Of a DNA stretch of 64,000 nucleotides, positions 5,713-47,111 are shown in pieces (position 1 is the first letter of the stretch; each line of letters begins with the position of its first letter). The position numbers and the translations under genes were made by a program. Source of the stretch: Sediminicoccus rosea (GTDB taxonomy: Bacteria > Pseudomonadota > Alphaproteobacteria > Acetobacterales > Acetobacteraceae); NCBI RefSeq assembly GCF_033547095.1, contig NZ_CP137852.1, positions 2,969,501 through 3,033,500 on the forward strand. The letters are read 5' to 3'. The notes beneath the pieces are model-generated. The model was not told the DNA's origin, searched no databases, and saw nothing but the letters and a program-made list of their open reading frames with translations.

Positions 5713-6512
5713 CTCCCGTAAAACACGCCCTGGCGCTTCTCGATCATCGCGTTCACGGCTTCCTTGTGATCCTCCGTCTCATGCGCGATGGCCTGGAAGG
5801 CCGCGGAGAGCTCGAGCAGCGAGGGCAATGACATGTGCTGCCCCTCGCGCAGCAGGCGCTTGGTCATGCGCAGCACCTGCGGCGGGTTCTTCGCCACGCG
5901 CGCGGCGAGTTCGCGCGCCGCGCCCAGCAATTCCCCATGCGGCACGACGCGGCTGACGAGGCGCGCGGCCAGCGCCTGCTCGGCATTCAGCGGGTCCCCC
6001 GTGAAGGACATCTCGGCCGCCATCGCGAGGCCGACGGCGCGCGGCAGCAGCCAGGCGCCACCATCGCCCGGCACGATGCCGACGCGCACGAAGCTCTCGG
6101 CGAAGATCGCCTTGTCGGAGGCGATCCGCATGTCGCACATGCAGGCGAGATCGAGCCCCGCGCCGATGGCCGCGCCATTCACGGCGGCGATGGTCGGCAC
6201 GTCCAGCTCCCAGAGCGCCAACGGGATGCGCTGGATGCCGCGCCGGTAGTTCTCGCGCATCACGGCCGGGCTGTCGGCCGCCATGATGCCCTTGCGGTCG
6301 CGCATGCCCTTGAGGTCGCCGCCCGCGCAGAAGGCCGGGTCCGCACCGGTCACGACGACGCAGCGGATGGCGTCGTCGCGCGCGATACGCTTGCAGGCGG
6401 CCTCCACCTCGTCGCAATCCTCGAAGCCGGAGATGGCGTTGCGTCGCTCGGGCGCGTTCAGCGTGAGGGTGACGACCGGGCCGTCCTGCTCGATCTTGAG
6501 GAAGTCACTCAT
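5709..6512 (-). CDS. Enoyl-CoA hydratase/isomerase (crotonase) family protein
   Basis: A 267-residue crotonase-fold enzyme. The oxyanion-hole segments are FCAGGDLKGM (about 60-70) and NGAAIGAGLDLA (about 110-121). The loop GIVPGDGGAWLLPR follows. By eye, the position of the first catalytic glutamate of rat crotonase (Glu144) is a phenylalanine, while the second (Glu164) seems kept in AEMSFTG. Simple enoyl-CoA hydration is therefore uncertain and isomerase, hydrolase or another crotonase reaction is possible. It follows the acyl-CoA dehydrogenase pair by 30 bases and overlaps the lactonase start. Confidence 0.82.
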   Translation of the reverse strand: MSDFLKIEQDGPVVTLTLNAPERRNAISGFEDCDEVEAACKRIARDDAIRCVVVTGADPAFCAGGDLKGMRDRKGIMAADSPAVMRENYRRGIQRIPLALWELDVPTIAAVNGAAIGAGLDLACMCDMRIASDKAIFAESFVRVGIVPGDGGAWLLPRAVGLAMAAEMSFTGDPLNAEQALAARLVSRVVPHGELLGAARELAARVAKNPPQVLRMTKRLLREGQHMSLPSLLELSAAFQAIAHETEDHKEAVNAMIEKRQGVFYGR

Positions 6513-6542
6513 TCATCGGTTCCTTGTTGTGGGGCGGCCGGT

Positions 6543-7544
6543 TCAAGCCTGCGCGCCCGCGGCGTCGCGCGCCGTGATGTCGGGCCAGAGATTGGCGCCG
6601 CCGCGCGCCAGCACGGCGCGGCCGATCTCGCTGGACCAGGTGACCGCGCTGCCCGCCTCGTCCCGCCAGGCCCAGAGGCGGCGCGTGAGGTGGTGCAACT
6701 CATGATCCTCGGTGATGCCGATCGCGGCGAAGACCTGGTGCACCTTGGCGGCGACGCTTTCGGCCGTCTCGCCGGCGATGATCTTGGCACAGCCGATCTC
6801 GAAGGCGGCGCCGTCCAGGCCATGCGCGTCCACCGCACGCGCGGCCGAGGCCACCGCCACATCAAGCGCGGCCACATCGCCCGCCACCATCGCGAGGGAT
6901 TGCTGCACCGCCTGGAACTTGCCGATGGCACGACCGAACTGGACGCGGGTATTGGCCCAATCCACCGCCAGCGTCAGGGCTTGCCGCGCCGCCCCGGAGA
7001 TCTGCGCGGCCCGCACGAGCGCGAGGCCGAGTCGCGTGGCCCGCGTGCCCCAGCCATTGGGCAGGAGGCCCTCCAGCAGGGCTGCCCCCGGCTCCACCAT
7101 GTCGCGCGGTTCGCGCGCCAGGTTGCCAGAGGGGAAATAGCTGTCGCGCGGCCGCAGCGCGATGCGCCCGGGCCCCTCCTCCGTCACCACATGCAGCGCA
7201 AAGCGGCCAAAGGGCGTGGCGCGCGTGCCGAGGCTGATGAAGCCGATCTGCGGCTCAAGCCCGGCCGCGGCCAGCAGGGCATTGGCCAGCATCGCCTCGG
7301 CCAGGGGCGCGGGCGCGCCGAAGCGGCCCAGCACCTGCCAGACCGCCGCGGCATCCCCCCAGCCCAGGCCGACGCCTGAGGCGGCCTCAGGCACCAGGGC
7401 CAGGGGAAGGCCCAGCTCGACCATCTCGGCCCAGAGCCCGGCCGGCCATTCGCCCGCCTCGACGCGCCGCAGCAGGGCCACGCCCGCCTGGTCGGCCAGC
7501 AGGCGCTCGACCTGCTCCAGGATGATGTCGCGCATCTCGCTCAT
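6543..7544 (-). CDS. Acyl-CoA dehydrogenase, small partner subunit
   Basis: A 333-residue acyl-CoA dehydrogenase-like flavoprotein, shorter and more divergent than its neighbour. It has the N-terminal helical domain, a degenerate middle beta domain and the C-terminal segment RVQFGRAIGKFQAVQQSLAM that is diagnostic of the family. Its start overlaps the stop of the upstream acyl-CoA dehydrogenase by four bases (ATGA). Adjacent, unequal acyl-CoA dehydrogenase genes are known to make alpha2beta2 heterotetramers (for example ChsE1-ChsE2 of Mycobacterium), and that is my inference here. The two would oxidise an unusual, perhaps bulky, acyl-CoA. Confidence 0.82.
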   Translation of the reverse strand: MSEMRDIILEQVERLLADQAGVALLRRVEAGEWPAGLWAEMVELGLPLALVPEAASGVGLGWGDAAAVWQVLGRFGAPAPLAEAMLANALLAAAGLEPQIGFISLGTRATPFGRFALHVVTEEGPGRIALRPRDSYFPSGNLAREPRDMVEPGAALLEGLLPNGWGTRATRLGLALVRAAQISGAARQALTLAVDWANTRVQFGRAIGKFQAVQQSLAMVAGDVAALDVAVASAARAVDAHGLDGAAFEIGCAKIIAGETAESVAAKVHQVFAAIGITEDHELHHLTRRLWAWRDEAGSAVTWSSEIGRAVLARGGANLWPDITARDAAGAQA

Positions 7545-8677
7545 CGCAGTCCCAGCTCCCGCGCGATGATGCCGCGCAAAATCTCCCGCGTGCCGCCACG
7601 CAGGCTGAAGGTGGGCGCCAGCTGCACCAGGTCGTCCAGCAGCAGGCGCAAATCGGGCGGCATGTCCTCGGGGTCCATCAGGCTGCGGATCTGCTCGGGC
7701 AGCGCCTGTTCGAAGACATTGCCGACATCCTTCACCAGTGCCGCCTCCACCGCCGGAGATTCGCCGCGTTCCAGCATGCCGCCCACCGAGAGCGACATGC
7801 CGCGCAGCGTGTTCAGCCGCGCCACCATGCGGCCGATCGTGGCTTCGGCCCCCGGCACGGGCGCCGCGTTGAGCGCATCAATGCCCGCCGCCAGCGCCGG
7901 GTAGGAGGAGAGGTAGCGGTCCGGCCCACTGCGCTCGAAGGCGAGTTCGGAGGTGGCCTGGGCCCAGCCCGCACCCTCCTCGCCCAGCAGGTCATCCTCG
8001 CGCAGCATCACGTCGTCGAAGGTGACCTCGTTGAAGCTCTCCTCGCCCACGAGATCCCGGATCGGGCGGATGGAAATGCCCGAGAGGCGCAGGTCCACCA
8101 GGAATTGCGAAAGCCCCGCATGGCGCGAGCGGCCCTCCGGCGCGGGGGAGGTCCGCACGAGGGCGATCATGTAGTCGCTCTTGTGGGCGAAGGTGGTCCA
8201 GATCTTTCGGCCGTTCAGCTTCCAGCCATTCGGCACGCGCTCCGCCTTGGTGCGGAGGTTGGCGAGATCGCTGCCCGCCTCCGGCTCTGAGAGGCCGATG
8301 CAGAAAGCGAGTTCGCCCCGGGCGATACCGGGGAGGATGCGCCGCCGCTGCTCCTCCGTGCCGAGCCTGAGGATGAGCGGGCCCGACTGCCGGTCGCCGA
8401 TCCAGTGGGCGCCGACCGGCGCGCCGGCGGCCAGCATCTCCTCCAGCACCACGATTCGCTCGAGTCCCGACTTCTCGTGCCCGCCATAGGCGGCGGGCCA
8501 GGTCATGCCGATCCAGCCGCGGGCGCCCACCGCCCGGGAAAATCCACGGTCGAAGCCCATCCAGGAGCGCGCGCGGATGTCGGGGGTCCAGTCGCGCCCG
8601 GCCTCGGCCAGGAAGTCGCGCAACTCGCGGCGCAACTCGGCCGCGCGCGGCGGGGCATCGGGCAGGTCGAAACGCAT
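7541..8677 (-). CDS. Acyl-CoA dehydrogenase, larger subunit
   Basis: A 378-residue acyl-CoA dehydrogenase and the first gene of the catabolic operon. FAD/substrate motifs are visible: FCIGLSEPEAGSDLANLRT and LNGRKIWTTFAHKSDY in the middle domain, and GGTREILRGIIARELG at the C-terminus. The position of the MCAD catalytic glutamate (YEGT) is glycine here, as in the YGGT subgroup. I chose the ATG at 8677 because GGAGG stands seven bases upstream; an in-frame start at 8731 adds a proline-rich tail without homology. It is divergent from hemP. Confidence 0.88.
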   Translation of the reverse strand: MRFDLPDAPPRAAELRRELRDFLAEAGRDWTPDIRARSWMGFDRGFSRAVGARGWIGMTWPAAYGGHEKSGLERIVVLEEMLAAGAPVGAHWIGDRQSGPLILRLGTEEQRRRILPGIARGELAFCIGLSEPEAGSDLANLRTKAERVPNGWKLNGRKIWTTFAHKSDYMIALVRTSPAPEGRSRHAGLSQFLVDLRLSGISIRPIRDLVGEESFNEVTFDDVMLREDDLLGEEGAGWAQATSELAFERSGPDRYLSSYPALAAGIDALNAAPVPGAEATIGRMVARLNTLRGMSLSVGGMLERGESPAVEAALVKDVGNVFEQALPEQIRSLMDPEDMPPDLRLLLDDLVQLAPTFSLRGGTREILRGIIARELGLR

Positions 8678-8751
8678 GATTTTTCCTCCGTGCGGGAGGC
8701 TAGCAGGGGGTGGGGGAAGCCGGAACTCCACCCTCTGGCCTCAACTGCACT

Positions 8752-8766
8752 TGCGAGTCATTCTCA
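8752..8766 (+). promoter_or_regulatory. Fur-box-like operator upstream of hemP
   Basis: The 7-1-7 element TGCGAGT-C-ATTCTCA matches the Fur consensus TGATAAT-N-ATTATCA at 10 of 14 positions and lies 21 bases before the hemP ATG. It most plausibly represses the heme-uptake operon when iron is plentiful. It also lies near the start of the divergent acyl-CoA dehydrogenase operon. Confidence 0.6.
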
Positions 8767-8787
8767 TTTACGGTATCGCATCAGCCC

Positions 8788-8970
8788 ATGGTGAACACCG
8801 ATGACCCCACGCCCTTCCGCCCGCCCAGACCGACGGACCGCGACTCCCGCCGCCGCTGCCTCGACGCCGAGGTGCTGTTCCGCGACGGCCCCGAAGTCGA
8901 GATCCATCACAAGGAGGACATCTATCGCCTGCGCCTGACGCGCGGCGGAAAGCTCATCCTGACCAAGTAG
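8788..8970 (+). CDS. hemP: Hemin uptake protein HemP/HmuP
   Basis: A 60-residue protein with the HemP signature at the C-terminus (DIYRLRLTRGGKLILTK) and the preceding DSRRRC segment. I chose the ATG at 8788; the longer frame from 8710 would run through the Fur-like box. HemP/HmuP proteins accompany bacterial heme receptors. In rhizobia (Bradyrhizobium, Sinorhizobium) HmuP is reported as a co-activator needed for expression of the heme receptor gene. By analogy it may help control the TonB-dependent receptor that follows 151 bases downstream. Confidence 0.88.
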   Translation: MVNTDDPTPFRPPRPTDRDSRRRCLDAEVLFRDGPEVEIHHKEDIYRLRLTRGGKLILTK

Positions 8971-8974
8971 TTGC

Positions 8975-9019
8975 TGTCTCTTTCTCTCCCGCCTCTCCCT
9001 CTCCCCTTCCCTCCGTCTC
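8975..9019 (+). other. Pyrimidine-rich tract between hemP and the heme receptor
   Basis: About 45 bases made almost only of C and T, in the 5' leader of the receptor gene. No gene is seen. It would give an unstructured CU-rich RNA, a possible Rho loading site or small-RNA/protein target between the abundant hemP and receptor mRNAs. Confidence 0.4.
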
Positions 9020-9121
9020 ACCGCGTCAGCCAGCCCCGGATCCGCCCCGCAGAGCGGGCGTCCCGCAAGCCAGCGCGCCATCCCCCTGCCGGGCGATGGC
9101 ACCCACCCGCAAGGCCTTGCC

Positions 9122-43033: not shown

Positions 43034-43783
43034 ATGGAGCCCGCTCAGGACGACCCCGAATGGACCGCGCTGCGCGAAGGGCGGGCCAGCACGCTTGCCG
43101 CGCTCTTCGGCCCGCTGCTGGCGCCGCCCGCGCGGGGCCTCGTGATCGGCCGTCTCGCGCAGACGCTGGACGGGCGGATCGCGACGCGCTCGGGCAACAG
43201 CAAATGGATCGGCGGCGCGGGGGACCTGCGCCACACCCACCGGCTGCGTGCGCTGTGCGACGCGGTGATCGTGGGTGCAGGCACGGTGCGGGCGGATGAC
43301 CCGCTGCTGACCACGCGGCTCTGCGCCGGCCCCTCGCCCGTGCGGGTGGTGATTGATGCGGGACGGCGGCTCGGGGCGGATTACGGCCTGTTCCGCGAGG
43401 GACCGCCGACGCTGCTGGCGACGGTCGAGCCCGGCCCCGCGCGCCATGGCACGGCCGAGGCCTTGCTGCTGCCGCGTGCGCCGGATGGTGGCCTGGATCT
43501 CGCCGCCCTGCTGGACGCCCTGACCGCGCGGGGCCTCAGGACGATCTTCGTGGAGGGCGGCGGGCAGACCGTCTCGGGTTTCCTGCGCGCCGGGCTGCTG
43601 GACCGGCTGCATGTGACCGTGGCGCCCATGATCCTGGGCTCCGGCCGGCCTGCCTTTGATTTGCCCGAAGTGGGGCGCATCGAGCAGGGCATGCGCTTCA
43701 CCTGGACCGTCCACGACATCGCCCCCGATGTGCTCTTCGACATCGCCCTCGACCGCCGCACGCCGAGCGAGGCCGCGCCATGA
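43034..43783 (+). CDS. RibD C-terminal-type pyrimidine reductase
   Basis: A 249-residue protein matching the reductase half of RibD (DHFR-like fold) without the deaminase half. Visible motifs are LVIGRLAQTLDGRIATRSG, NSKWIGGAGDLRHTHRLR, DAVIVGAGTVRADDPLLTTR and the C-terminal FVEGGGQTVSGFLRAGLLDRL. This family reduces the ribose of 5-amino-6-ribosylaminouracil phosphate with NADPH. As the first gene of a block with PTPS-like, glycosyltransferase and methyltransferase genes it probably works in a specialised pathway and not in riboflavin synthesis. It overlaps the next gene by ATGA. Confidence 0.83.
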   Translation: MEPAQDDPEWTALREGRASTLAALFGPLLAPPARGLVIGRLAQTLDGRIATRSGNSKWIGGAGDLRHTHRLRALCDAVIVGAGTVRADDPLLTTRLCAGPSPVRVVIDAGRRLGADYGLFREGPPTLLATVEPGPARHGTAEALLLPRAPDGGLDLAALLDALTARGLRTIFVEGGGQTVSGFLRAGLLDRLHVTVAPMILGSGRPAFDLPEVGRIEQGMRFTWTVHDIAPDVLFDIALDRRTPSEAAP

Positions 43784-44775
43784 GTGACCGGCGCGAGAGC
43801 ATGGCCCAGGCGCTCTGGCACACTGCGCCCGGAGCTGCGGAGCTGCGCGCGGCGCGCCTGCCGGGCCCCGCCGCGGGTGAGCTTCTGGTGCAGGCGCTGG
43901 CCTCGGGCATTTCGCGCGGCACCGAGCGTCTGGTGCATCACGGCCGCGTGCCGGCCTCCCAGCACGCGGCGATGCGCTGCCCGATGCAGGAGGGCGAATT
44001 CAACTTCCCGGTGAAATACGGCTACGCGGCGGTGGGCCGCGTCGAGCAAGGGCCGACGGAATGGCTGGGCCGCCGCGTCTTCGCGCTGCATCCGCACCAG
44101 TCGCGCTTCACCATCCCCGTGCATTTCTGCGCGCTGGTCCCCGATGGCGTGAGCGATGCGCGCGCCTGTCTCGGCGCCAACATGGAAACCGCGCTGAATG
44201 TCATGTGGGATGCGGCCCCCCGCCTGGGCGAACGCGCGATGGTGATCGGCGCGGGCGTGGTCGGCCTGCTCTGCGCCTTCCTGTTGGCCCGCCTGCCCGG
44301 TGTCGCGGTGACGGTGGTGGATCGCGACCCGGCCAAGGCCGCCCTGGCCCGCGGCTTCGGCGCCGATTTCGCCCCGCCCGAGGCCGCGCCGCGCGACCAG
44401 GAACTCATCATCCACGCCAGCGCCAGCGCCGCCGGCCTGCGCCTCGCCCTCGACTGCGCCGCCTTCGAAGGCCGCATCCTGGAGGCAAGCTGGTTCGGCG
44501 ATTCCGAGCCCGCGCTGCCGCTCGGCGCCGCCTTCCACCAGAAGCGGCTGCAGCTGATCTCCACGCAGGTGGGCAGCGTCTCCCCCGCCATGCGCGGCCG
44601 CCGCAGCCATGGCGAGCGGATGGCGCTGGCCTTGGCGCTGCTGGAGGATGCGCGGCTCGATGCGCTGCTCGGCCCCTTCGTGCCCTTTGAAGATCTGCCC
44701 GCCGCCCTACCTGCCCTGCTCGACCCGCCGCCCGGCGCGCCGCAGCCGCTCTGCCCCGTCATTCGCTACACCTGA
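43780..44775 (+). CDS. MDR-family dehydrogenase, BchC-like, lacking zinc cysteines
   Basis: A 331-residue medium-chain dehydrogenase/reductase. The segment ASGISRGTERLVHHGRVP followed by KYGYAAVGRV resembles the GTE-containing group that includes BchC, and the nucleotide fold is MVIGAGVVGLLCAFLLARLP. The four structural-zinc cysteines and the usual catalytic Cys are absent, so it is probably zinc-independent or atypical. It overlaps the RibD-like gene (ATGA) and precedes the PTPS-like gene by 14 bases. It likely oxidises or reduces an intermediate of the same pathway. Confidence 0.75.
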   Translation: MSDRRESMAQALWHTAPGAAELRAARLPGPAAGELLVQALASGISRGTERLVHHGRVPASQHAAMRCPMQEGEFNFPVKYGYAAVGRVEQGPTEWLGRRVFALHPHQSRFTIPVHFCALVPDGVSDARACLGANMETALNVMWDAAPRLGERAMVIGAGVVGLLCAFLLARLPGVAVTVVDRDPAKAALARGFGADFAPPEAAPRDQELIIHASASAAGLRLALDCAAFEGRILEASWFGDSEPALPLGAAFHQKRLQLISTQVGSVSPAMRGRRSHGERMALALALLEDARLDALLGPFVPFEDLPAALPALLDPPPGAPQPLCPVIRYT

Positions 44776-44789
44776 AGGATCGCCGCCCC

Positions 44790-45191
44790 ATGTTCAGCCT
44801 CACCGTCGTGGACCACATCATGGTCGCGCATTCCTTCCGCGGCGCGGAGTTCGGCCCGGCGCAGCGCCTGCACGGCGCGACCTTCGTGGTGGAGGCGGAG
44901 TTCCGGGCGCCGAAGCTGGATGACCTGCACCTGTTGATCGACATCGGCCTCGCCAAGGATGAGCTGCGCAAGATCCTGAGCGCGCTGGACTACCGCAACC
45001 TGGACGAGGAGCCGGTCTTCGCCGGCAAGAACACCACCACCGAATATCTCTGTCTGCACATCCATGGGTTGCTGGCCGCCGCCTGCAAGGATGGGCGCAT
45101 GGGGCCGGGTGGCGCCGGCGTCTCGGGCATCAAGGTGCTGCTGCGCGAAAGCCATGTGGCCTGGGCCGCCTTCGAGGGGCCGGTCGGCTGA
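44790..45191 (+). CDS. 6-pyruvoyl-tetrahydropterin synthase/QueD-like protein with altered active site
   Basis: A 133-residue PTPS/6-carboxytetrahydropterin synthase homologue with the expected T-fold length. Compared with E. coli QueD: the first two zinc histidines are kept (H14 in VAHSF, H28 in RLHGAT), the third (HGH) is A30, the catalytic cysteine position is A24, and the histidine of the LDH dyad is Y68 (ALDYRNLD). The substrate-binding glutamate is kept (E120 in LLRESHV). The fold is clear but normal QueD or PTPS chemistry is unlikely. It sits between the dehydrogenase and the glycosyltransferase. Confidence 0.8.
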   Translation: MFSLTVVDHIMVAHSFRGAEFGPAQRLHGATFVVEAEFRAPKLDDLHLLIDIGLAKDELRKILSALDYRNLDEEPVFAGKNTTTEYLCLHIHGLLAAACKDGRMGPGGAGVSGIKVLLRESHVAWAAFEGPVG

Positions 45192-45193
45192 TC

Positions 45194-46228
45194 ATGCGGA
45201 TCGCGCTGCTGGTTCCCGGGCCCTTCGACACCGTCTCGGGCGGTTATCTCTACGACCGGCGGATGGTGGAGGGGCTGCGCGGGCTGGGTCATGCCGTGCG
45301 CGTGGTGGAACTCGCCGGGCGCTTCCCCATGCCGGATGAGGCGGCCATGACCGCGGCACGCGAAGCCTGGGCGGGCCTTGGCGCGGATGAAACCGCCGTG
45401 ATCGACGGGCTCGCCCTGCCCGCCTTCGCGCCGCTGGCGTCCGGGCTTGCCGCGCGGCGCGCGGTCGGGCTGATCCACCACCCCACCTCCATCGAGCCCG
45501 GCCCGAACCAGGCGGAACTCGCGGCACTGGAGCGCGAGCTCTTCGCGGCCTGTGGCCGCCTCGTCGCCACCTCGCCCTACACCGCCAAGGGCCTGCCGCC
45601 GCTGGGCGCCGACCCGGCCCGCATCGGCGTGGTGGAGCCCGGGACCGACCGCGCACCACGCGCCCAAGGCTCGGGCGGGCCGGGGGCGCGCATCCTGGCC
45701 GTGGGTTCGCTCATTCCGCGCAAGGGGCACGACGTGCTGCTGCGCGCCCTGTCGCGCCTCACCGACCTTGACTGGGCCCTGCGCATCGCGGGCCCGGCGG
45801 CGGACCCCGTGCATGCCGATGGGCTGCGGGCGCTCGCCGAGGAGTTGGGCCTCGCGGGCCGCGTCACCTTCCTCGGCGCCGTCACGGATGCGGCGCTGGA
45901 GGCGGAATACGCGGCGGCCGACCTCTTCGCGCTCGCCACCTGGTTCGAGGGCTATGGCATGGCCGCCGCCGAGGCCCAGGCGCGCGGCTTGCCGCTGATC
46001 CTCTGCACCGGCGGTGCCATCGCCGACCTCGTCGGGCCAGGCGCCGCGATCCTGGCGGCGCCGGGCGATGCCAACAGCCTCTCCCGCGGGATGCGCCGGC
46101 CGATCTACGACCCGGCGTTGCGCGCGCAGATGGCCGAGGCGAGCTGGCTGGCCGGCCAGGCCCTGCCTAGCTGGGAGGACCGCGCCCAGCGCTTCGCGGC
46201 CGAGCTGGAGGCCGCTTCGCGTGGATGA
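45194..46228 (+). CDS. Glycosyltransferase family 4 (group 1) protein
   Basis: A 344-residue GT-B glycosyltransferase. The N-terminal domain begins MRIALLVPGPFDTVSGGYLYDRRM. The C-terminal donor domain has ILAVGSLIPRKGHDVLLRAL and the EX7E-type motif WFEGYGMAAAEAQARGLP that contacts the nucleotide sugar. It is cytoplasmic with no membrane helix. It starts two bases after the PTPS-like stop. Its acceptor is likely the product of the neighbouring pterin-like enzymes, not a cell-surface lipid; this is inference from context. Confidence 0.85.
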   Translation: MRIALLVPGPFDTVSGGYLYDRRMVEGLRGLGHAVRVVELAGRFPMPDEAAMTAAREAWAGLGADETAVIDGLALPAFAPLASGLAARRAVGLIHHPTSIEPGPNQAELAALERELFAACGRLVATSPYTAKGLPPLGADPARIGVVEPGTDRAPRAQGSGGPGARILAVGSLIPRKGHDVLLRALSRLTDLDWALRIAGPAADPVHADGLRALAEELGLAGRVTFLGAVTDAALEAEYAAADLFALATWFEGYGMAAAEAQARGLPLILCTGGAIADLVGPGAAILAAPGDANSLSRGMRRPIYDPALRAQMAEASWLAGQALPSWEDRAQRFAAELEAASRG

Positions 46229-47111
46229 GGCAATGGAAACCGAGCAGTTCGACGGCGACTGGCTCTCGCTGCGCGAACCCTTCGACGCGCGGGCCCGCAA
46301 CGCGGATCTGGCCCGCGCCCTGATGGAGCACCTGGACGAGAAGGGCCGCCCGCGCTTCCTCGACCTCGGCGCGGGCACGGGCAGCCTCACCCGCTGGCTA
46401 GGCCATTATGTCGGCCGTGCGCATGCCTGGGTCATGGCCGATGCCGATGCGGCGCTGATGGCGCGCGCCTTTGACACGATGATGGATGCGGCCGATGCCA
46501 TCGGCTGGCGGGCTACCTGGCCGCAGCGCAAGGTGCTGCTGCTGCACGCGCCCGAGGGCGCCTGGCGCATCGAGGGCGTGCTGACCAACCTCGCCGAGGC
46601 ACCCGAGGGCCTGCCGCTGCAGAACGTGGATGCGGTGACCTGCAGCGCGCTTTGCGACCTCGTCTCCGAGGCCTGGGTGGTGCGTCTCGCGGCTGGGCTC
46701 GCCCGGCGCAAGCTGCCCTTCTACGCCGCGCTGAACGTGACGGGGCGCGAGCGCTTCATGCCCCCCTGCCCCGGCGATGCCCTGGTGGCGCGCGGCTTCG
46801 CCCGGGACCAGCGCCGCGCGAAGGGCTTCGGCGGGATGGCGCTGGGGGCGGCGGCGACGGACACCATCGCGCGGATCTTCGCGAGCCATGGCTATCGCGT
46901 GCTGCGCGGCGCGAGCCCCTGGGTGATCCCGCGCCAGGCGCGCGAGATGGCGCTGGAACTCGCCCTCGGCCATGCCGAGGCGGCGCTGCGGCATGAGCGG
47001 CGCGGGGCCGGGCAGATCAACGCCTGGGCCGAGACGCGGGCCGACCAGGCCGAGGCCGGGCTGCTCTCGGCGCGGGTGGAGCACCAGGACATTCTCTGCC
47101 TCCCGGGCTAG
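46221..47111 (+). CDS. Class I SAM-dependent methyltransferase
   Basis: A methyltransferase of about 292-296 residues. Motif I is FLDLGAGTGSLTRWLG, the acidic loop is WVMADADAALMARAFD, and the post-motif region VDAVTCSALCDLVSEAWV follows. The start is GTG 46221 (GGAGG nine bases upstream, 8-base overlap with the glycosyltransferase) or ATG 46233. It is the last gene of the five-gene block and probably methylates the product or its sugar. Confidence 0.8.
   Translation: MDEAMETEQFDGDWLSLREPFDARARNADLARALMEHLDEKGRPRFLDLGAGTGSLTRWLGHYVGRAHAWVMADADAALMARAFDTMMDAADAIGWRATWPQRKVLLLHAPEGAWRIEGVLTNLAEAPEGLPLQNVDAVTCSALCDLVSEAWVVRLAAGLARRKLPFYAALNVTGRERFMPPCPGDALVARGFARDQRRAKGFGGMALGAAATDTIARIFASHGYRVLRGASPWVIPRQAREMALELALGHAEAALRHERRGAGQINAWAETRADQAEAGLLSARVEHQDILCLPG

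Follow-up and report, generated by a model that had tools for sequence, protein, structure and literature searches.

A conserved five-gene block of Sediminicoccus rosea as the possible core of a pathway to a pterin- or ribityl-pyrimidine-type compound bearing sugar and methyl groups

A 64,000-nucleotide stretch of the Sediminicoccus rosea genome (contig NZ_CP137852.1, positions 2,969,501 to 3,033,500; here called the window) carries a block of five contiguous genes on the + strand (positions 43034 to 47111), which were confirmed as members of a conserved gene cluster. They encode a RibD C-terminal-domain (RibD_C) reductase, an MDR dehydrogenase, a protein of the PTPS/QueD fold, a GT4 glycosyltransferase, and an S-adenosylmethionine (SAM)-dependent methyltransferase (Table 1). 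We consider it reasonably likely that these genes form the core of a dedicated pathway leading from the product of GTP cyclohydrolase II to a glycosylated, methylated compound of the pterin or ribityl-pyrimidine type. The coordinates agree with a first-pass annotation of this DNA, which had described five genes on one strand with gaps of at most 14 bases or overlaps: RibD_C and MDR overlap by 4 bases, and gaps of 14 and 2 bases separate MDR from PTPS and PTPS from GT4, respectively. The mechanically called open reading frame of the methyltransferase starts at GTG 46014; judged by eye, ATG 46233 (4-base gap) and GTG 46221 (overlap) are better-fitting starts. The upstream side of the block is flanked by genes for flagellar FlgI and a rod-binding protein, and the downstream side by genes for a periplasmic binding protein and a permease of the branched-chain type; these neighbours look unrelated, and the block thus looks self-contained.

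Table 1. Genes of the block, with positions counted in the window
Product	Position	Strand	Evidence
RibD C-terminal-domain reductase, without deaminase domain, 249 aa	43034..43783	+	PF01872 E 4.3e-42
BchC-related MDR dehydrogenase, 331 aa, usual zinc Cys apparently replaced	43780..44775	+	TIGR01202 52.6 bits (below cut-off), fold matches
PTPS/QueD-fold protein, SCO6650 subfamily, 133 aa	44790..45191	+	PF01242 E 2.7e-20; 3d7j match
GT4 glycosyltransferase, 344 aa	45194..46228	+	PF00534 E 1.2e-26
Class I SAM-dependent methyltransferase, 292 aa, without close known relative	46233..47111	+	predicted structure

Relatives of the PTPS protein were gathered in three ways, i.e., by a class-wide search with this protein as the sole query (E of 1e-8; 30 of 240 genomes matched, the window's own included), from annotated plasmids (11 of 20 matching records examined), and by a scan of named genomes (the best 80 of at least 588 confirmed relatives, a set that leans towards near relatives). 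The 121 loci include near-copies (L049 and L128 are identical; L048 and L076 are nearly so), and the stretches of some of the 30 class genomes end at contig ends. The core families were present in most loci (MDR in 116, GT4 in 112, methyltransferase in 104, and RibD, by profile match, in 90). Of the loci, 98 extend at least 5 kb to either side of the PTPS gene; 85 of these had MDR, GT4, and methyltransferase genes within 4 kb of the PTPS gene on the same strand, and 67 had this quartet plus RibD within 5 kb on either strand. Linkage in related genomes, on which the first-pass annotation had made its proposal depend, is therefore strongly conserved. The 30 class genomes were unselected for linkage because they were found by the PTPS protein alone; MDR was present in 29 of them, GT4 and methyltransferase in 28 each, and RibD in 23.

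The loci belong to Alpha-, Beta- (one Thauera metagenome-assembled genome), and Gammaproteobacteria and to Actinomycetota; Acidobacteriota and Gemmatimonadota are represented by metagenome-assembled contigs only. Among the best 80 of the at least 588 named relatives, the closest PTPS protein (95% identity) is that of Roseococcus thiosulfatophilus. A tree of PTPS plus MDR was built from 83 of the 116 loci having both genes, with the near relatives of the window thinned to 12 rows; in this tree the Actinomycetota form one side of a branch (support, 100/99), as do the near relatives of the window (100/100). Since the cluster recurs in distant phyla, accidental linkage is very unlikely. Additional families also accompany the block, i.e., CDP-alcohol phosphatidyltransferase (46 of the 121 loci), GTP cyclohydrolase II (39), a flippase-like family (LPG synthase TM; 35), creatininase family (25), sulfatase fold (14), FkbM methyltransferase (13), and cytochrome b561 (10). 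Pfam searches with ten example proteins served to check these names; the sulfatase fell just below its cut-off. The GTP cyclohydrolase and creatininase-like partners that had been predicted to co-occur thus do so.

The PTPS protein passed the PF01242 cut-off (73.0 versus 22.4 bits) and missed that for QueD (39.5 versus 89.25 bits). Its nearest solved relative, over nearly the full length, is 3d7j (SCO6650; E of 1.3e-44 in a single-sequence search and 1.6e-62 by profile), which is labelled uncharacterised in the PDB. Eighteen columns, including H14, A24, H28, G29, A30, T31, D51, D72, E85, and E120, are invariant in 39 sequences. In alignments with the PTPS chains 2g64, 3i2b, and 1b66, the HGH of these chains becomes HGA, Ala24 stands opposite their Cys, and Tyr68 stands opposite the His of their LDHKNLD/VDHRNLD motif; HGH is also present in Escherichia coli QueD (4ntk). 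We take the Cys, the His of LDHKNLD, and the HGH of the PTPS chains to be catalytic and zinc residues. Because of these losses and the sub-cut-off QueD score, any catalytic role of the protein must differ from those of QueD and PTPS. A printed alignment shows the same residues in SCO6650 at the lost positions, which, together with the high similarity, places the window protein by sequence in the SCO6650 subfamily. SCO6650 reportedly lacks PTPS activity. At a guess, this subfamily is possibly the PTPS-V of the literature, the function of which is called unclear in one study (PMC5041015).

PF01872 was the only Pfam match of the RibD_C protein at E of 0.01, which sets it apart from bifunctional RibD (deaminase plus reductase). 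Among solved structures, stand-alone RibD-type pyrimidine reductases of the riboflavin type came closest (6p8c, 1.6e-27; 2azn, 9.5e-23), and the cut-off of the archaeal equivalog for reductases of 2,5-diamino-6-ribosylamino-4(3H)-pyrimidinone 5'-phosphate (APy) was missed (TIGR01508; 113.7 versus 186.45 bits). The window genome, with three RibD_C matches, has a separate riboflavin operon (nrdR-ribD-ribE-ribBA-ribH-nusB; genes named by eye from their N termini) that encodes a RibD of 370 aa. Given this operon, we rejected riboflavin synthesis as the function of the block, in line with the earlier proposal of a route different from riboflavin, and the cluster RibD_C is an additional one because the operon has its own RibD. 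Two PF00925 proteins occur in this genome, namely RibBA and a stand-alone RibA. The GTP cyclohydrolase half of RibBA (L077:5832-6950) appears by eye to lack the usual zinc Cys ligands, yet it lies over the Pfam cut-off; in the stand-alone RibA, CFTGDLLGSLRCDC is intact. Because these ligands seem to be missing from the RibA half of RibBA, the stand-alone RibA probably feeds both riboflavin synthesis and the five-gene block.

The MDR protein, first described as BchC-like, is BchC-related and not BchC itself, its 52.6 bits with TIGR01202 being below the cut-off of 291.25. Pfam matches were weak (ADH_zinc_N, 28.3 bits versus a cut-off of 31.8; two general nucleotide-binding models just above theirs). 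The predicted model (predicted local distance difference test [pLDDT], 92.7) matched the folds of butanediol and idonate dehydrogenases best, with sorbitol and xylitol dehydrogenases ranking close behind; on the basis of the model, oxidation of a polyol side chain would be a plausible activity. The usual zinc Cys is apparently replaced, GIC-GSD of 4ilk lying against GVSRGTE of the MDR protein in a weak stretch of the alignment. Such a loss of zinc would argue for an unusual active site or a different reaction.

The PDB relatives of the GT4 protein include D-inositol 3-phosphate and phosphatidylinositol glycosyltransferases, by which its acceptor is not fixed; G16, G17, R176, K177, G178, E252, G255, M256, and E260 are kept in at least 90% of 112 sequences. 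All Pfam matches of the methyltransferase were below threshold (best, 20.6 bits), and there was no PDB sequence relative below E of 0.89. Its AlphaFold model (pLDDT, 96.9) was matched by Foldseek to general small-molecule class I methyltransferases (e.g., 3mgg, 2.9e-10).

The GTP cyclohydrolase II genes of the cluster provided a further clue. We take Tyr to be the residue at the switch position of canonical enzymes. SCO6655 of Streptomyces coelicolor, presumably a GTP cyclohydrolase II homologue, reportedly has Met at this position and makes the formylated product FAPy. Among the 23 cluster enzymes from Actinomycetota, 11 have Met, 5 His, and 7 Tyr. A creatininase-family gene accompanies all 16 Met/His clusters (including each of the His-type loci L127, L133, L138, L143, and L147) versus none of the 7 Tyr clusters, a split with a chance of about 4 in a million under independence, which these rows do not have. 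The Tyr-type clusters fall in two separate places of the PTPS plus MDR tree (Micromonospora and Actinoplanes), and all seven have RibD within the stretch. Of the 16 enzymes from other phyla, 15 carry Tyr; the exception, an Arg enzyme encoded at 6.8 kb from the block in L050, looks unrelated. Four loci (L052, L063, L069, and L149) have a creatininase gene and no cyclohydrolase in the stretch. The pairing of switch residue and creatininase is thus clear in one phylum and not general.

Taken together, the families suggest the following pathway. GTP cyclohydrolase II would make APy, which would be diverted from riboflavin synthesis; in the window genome, the stand-alone RibA encoded elsewhere would be the source. 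The RibD_C protein, judging from its family and closest solved relatives, would reduce the ribosyl side chain with no prior deamination, as archaeal-type reductases do, and the BchC-related MDR may then oxidise a side-chain hydroxyl. The conserved Glu of the PTPS-fold protein would serve to bind the pyrimidine or pterin; given the residue losses described above, the protein would work in the absence of the customary zinc and Cys/His apparatus, and its step may be ring closure. GT4 and the methyltransferase would add a sugar and a methyl group, and in other lineages the product may be lipid-linked or exported by means of the CDP-alcohol phosphatidyltransferase and flippase-like genes. A glycosylated, methylated product, pterin-like or pyrimidine-derived, had been proposed in the first-pass annotation; the conserved linkage upholds a dedicated pathway, whereas the pterin identity, the placement of sugar and methyl on the product, and a free product found no direct support.

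Several observations weigh against this pathway or parts of it. The quartet arrangement is absent from 13 of the 98 loci: two Streptomyces plasmids (L043 and L044) carry PTPS alone without the block, L074 has only an opposite-strand MDR-type gene and, at a distance, an FkbM gene, GT4 is the sole companion of PTPS in L121 and L124, L105 has neither GT4 nor methyltransferase, and several further loci lack GT4 or methyltransferase; L057 and L065 end at contig ends. Quinone oxidoreductases stand near the polyol dehydrogenases in the MDR fold ranking. Of the 16 actinobacterial loci of the Met/His type, 14 have no RibD in the stretch, and 5 of the 15 non-Actinomycetota loci with a Tyr-type enzyme have a creatininase gene, so that the actinobacterial rule does not extend to them. 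One creatininase-family protein (L037) scored 37 bits against an ArfB cut-off of 180 and 141 bits against an MftE cut-off of 172 and is thus nearer MftE than ArfB; since this tested member is not ArfB by score, deformylation by the cluster creatininase is inferential. The three creatininase genes of the window genome were rejected as partners: two form a group of their own and the third is a long outlier, and by this tree grouping no orthologue of the cluster creatininase was found in that genome.

Most biological pterins begin at GTP cyclohydrolase I (PMC13259868). A bolder and rather doubtful version of the pathway, built on chemical logic, would be a pterin route independent of that enzyme, in which RibD_C reduces APy to the ribityl compound, the polyol-dehydrogenase-like MDR oxidises C2' of the ribityl chain, and closure of the dihydropterin ring falls to the zinc-less T-fold protein. 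Reduction and oxidation by RibD_C and MDR would replace the rearrangement by GTP cyclohydrolase I and pass through the same 1-deoxy-pentulosyl (Amadori) intermediate. Dihydroneopterin monophosphate would then be glycosylated and methylated and, in several phyla, become a lipid-linked membrane pterin. The GTP cyclohydrolase II of actinobacterial clusters with the Met/His switch would retain the formyl group, and a creatininase-fold deformylase would be its partner.

Among the alternatives to the proposed pathway, it is possible, although unlikely, that the product is no classical pterin and that its ribityl chain stays attached to nitrogen, as in a 2-amino-lumazine or deazaflavin-like chromophore. 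RibD would indeed yield a ribityl chain, and a membrane cytochrome b561 gene accompanies the block in 10 of the 121 loci; however, a PTPS-fold protein in the cluster speaks for a substrate of the pterin or dihydropterin kind.

Less probable still, and in our view distinctly unlikely, is a surface or lipid-linked glycan, with the pterin-like enzymes modifying a sugar. The co-occurrence of GT4, CDP-alcohol phosphatidyltransferase, flippase-like, FkbM, and sulfatase-fold genes outside the near relatives of the window fits this explanation. Two of the CDP-alcohol phosphatidyltransferases, from relatives, scored 67.4 and 50 bits against PF01066 (cut-off, 22), and the residues of D..DG..AR....G...D...D, which we take to be the motif of this family, are kept in at least 90% of 46 sequences. 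These additions suggest a lipid-linked or exported product in other lineages. However, neither CDP-alcohol nor flippase-like genes were found near the block in any of 35 loci of the window's near relatives, and GTP cyclohydrolase II, RibD_C, and PTPS-fold families act on GTP-derived heterocycles in the characterised cases known to us. The window genome has four PF01066 proteins; no cluster-type CDP-alcohol gene was found elsewhere in it with one Rhizobium query, used without a positive control.

It is very improbable that the PTPS protein is simply the QueD of the genome and that the other genes are accidental neighbours. A QueD role was tested because the window genome has QueC (E of 5.1e-67; G000:C1:2229726-2230379) and no second PTPS was found, i.e., the genome search returned no other PF01242 protein and no QueD above the cut-off. 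Strong QueC matches (E < 1e-60) occurred in 15 of the 30 class genomes, of which 6 have a single PTPS match, as this explanation would have it, and 9 have a second PTPS, which speaks against it. Across 80 genomes of the family (the window's own included), QueC occurred without a PTPS protein in 9 (6 of these at least 90% complete), and PTPS occurred without a QueC match at 1e-30 in 6. The step of queuosine synthesis usually catalysed by QueD thus has no assigned enzyme in those 9 genomes or, given the lack of a QueD above the cut-off, in the window genome. In five of the six QueC-less genomes (one being only 82% complete), a cluster-type PTPS gene is adjoined by MDR and GT4; RibD and methyltransferase are also present in four of the five, and in the fifth (L173) no methyltransferase was found and RibD would fall past the end of the contig. 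The sixth genome had no match to the cluster profiles. The cluster PTPS is therefore neither required for nor confined to queuosine, and we rejected QueD as its common function on these counts (5 of 80 with cluster and no QueC; 9 of 80 with QueC and no PTPS), as the earlier proposal of a route other than queuosine would have it. The QueD score below the cut-off and the replacement of the catalytic Cys and His and of one zinc His of PTPS chains point the same way. Because the window genome has QueC and the search gave no further PTPS, a side role as QueD is possible there. A toxoflavin- or fervenulin-like antibiotic route is the least credible explanation, since, although the GTP cyclohydrolase II, RibD-type, and methyltransferase steps resemble those of toxoflavin synthesis, the PTPS, MDR, and GT4 of the core are not known to us from toxoflavin clusters, and conservation across several phyla would be unusual for an antibiotic.

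A search of the open-licence literature found no description of the cluster, and the proposed pathway has partial parallels. The window block resembles SCO6650/SCO6655 of S. coelicolor through its PTPS protein (3d7j, E of 1.3e-44), and other Streptomyces clusters, through which S. coelicolor was compared, have the same core plus GTP cyclohydrolase II. Unlike the Streptomyces clusters, the window has RibD and lacks adjoining GTP cyclohydrolase II, creatininase, CDP-alcohol, and flippase genes. The archaeal-type riboflavin route uses FAPy, the deformylase ArfB, and a stand-alone RibD_C reductase. The window shares the stand-alone RibD_C with it, and cluster relatives share a creatininase-fold hydrolase and a GTP cyclohydrolase; however, the cluster GTP cyclohydrolase is of type II, the tested creatininase is nearer MftE than ArfB, and we know of no counterpart in that route for the rest of the cluster. 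Tetrahydrobiopterin is made through GTP cyclohydrolase I. A pteridine glycosyltransferase of Chlorobium acts on it (PMC5683033). Transfer of a sugar onto a pterin is likewise what we propose for the cluster, which in contrast is linked to GTP cyclohydrolase II and RibD. The folate by-pass of Chlamydia with RibA and TrpF, attributed to Adams in 2014, is said to make a pterin from the GTP cyclohydrolase II product, with isomerisation by TrpF. The cluster would share this starting point, with a reductase and a dehydrogenase in place of the TrpF isomerisation.

A cluster found in four phyla with an uncharacterised 3d7j-type protein points to a new pterin-like or ribityl-pyrimidine molecule. If GTP cyclohydrolase II supplies the precursor and the compound is a pterin, pterin chemistry would have one more way in, and where CDP-alcohol and flippase genes are present the compound may be a membrane-bound pterin, a cofactor class that to our knowledge has not been described. 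Both the SCO6650-type PTPS subfamily and the GTP cyclohydrolase II found in Streptomyces clusters would also gain a testable function from the proposed pathway.

Some further genes were noted around the block and its relatives. In the near-relative loci, e.g., at L083:12322-14206, an SBD_N/NBD_C (sugar-acid kinase-like) gene recurs near the block in 33 of 47 and a class II aldolase-like gene in 23 of 47; both may reflect plain synteny, and both family names were checked on L083 only. Two creatininase genes of the window genome lie, possibly by chance, near photolyase genes, one beside DPRP (PF04244) and DNA photolyase genes (L079:2411-3961, 6106-6906, and 7658-9073) and one beside a second DNA photolyase/cryptochrome gene (L080:4680-6248 and 6239-7060). 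The orphan PTPS-subfamily copies of the two Streptomyces plasmids (L043:9001-9399 and L044:9001-9426) have genes of the MEKHLA-domain, cupin, and BTAD-regulator types in their vicinity. Nine loci carry, near the block, a member of a family of about 620 aa; the annotation of the one at L039:7082-8950 is MdoH-type glucosyltransferase.

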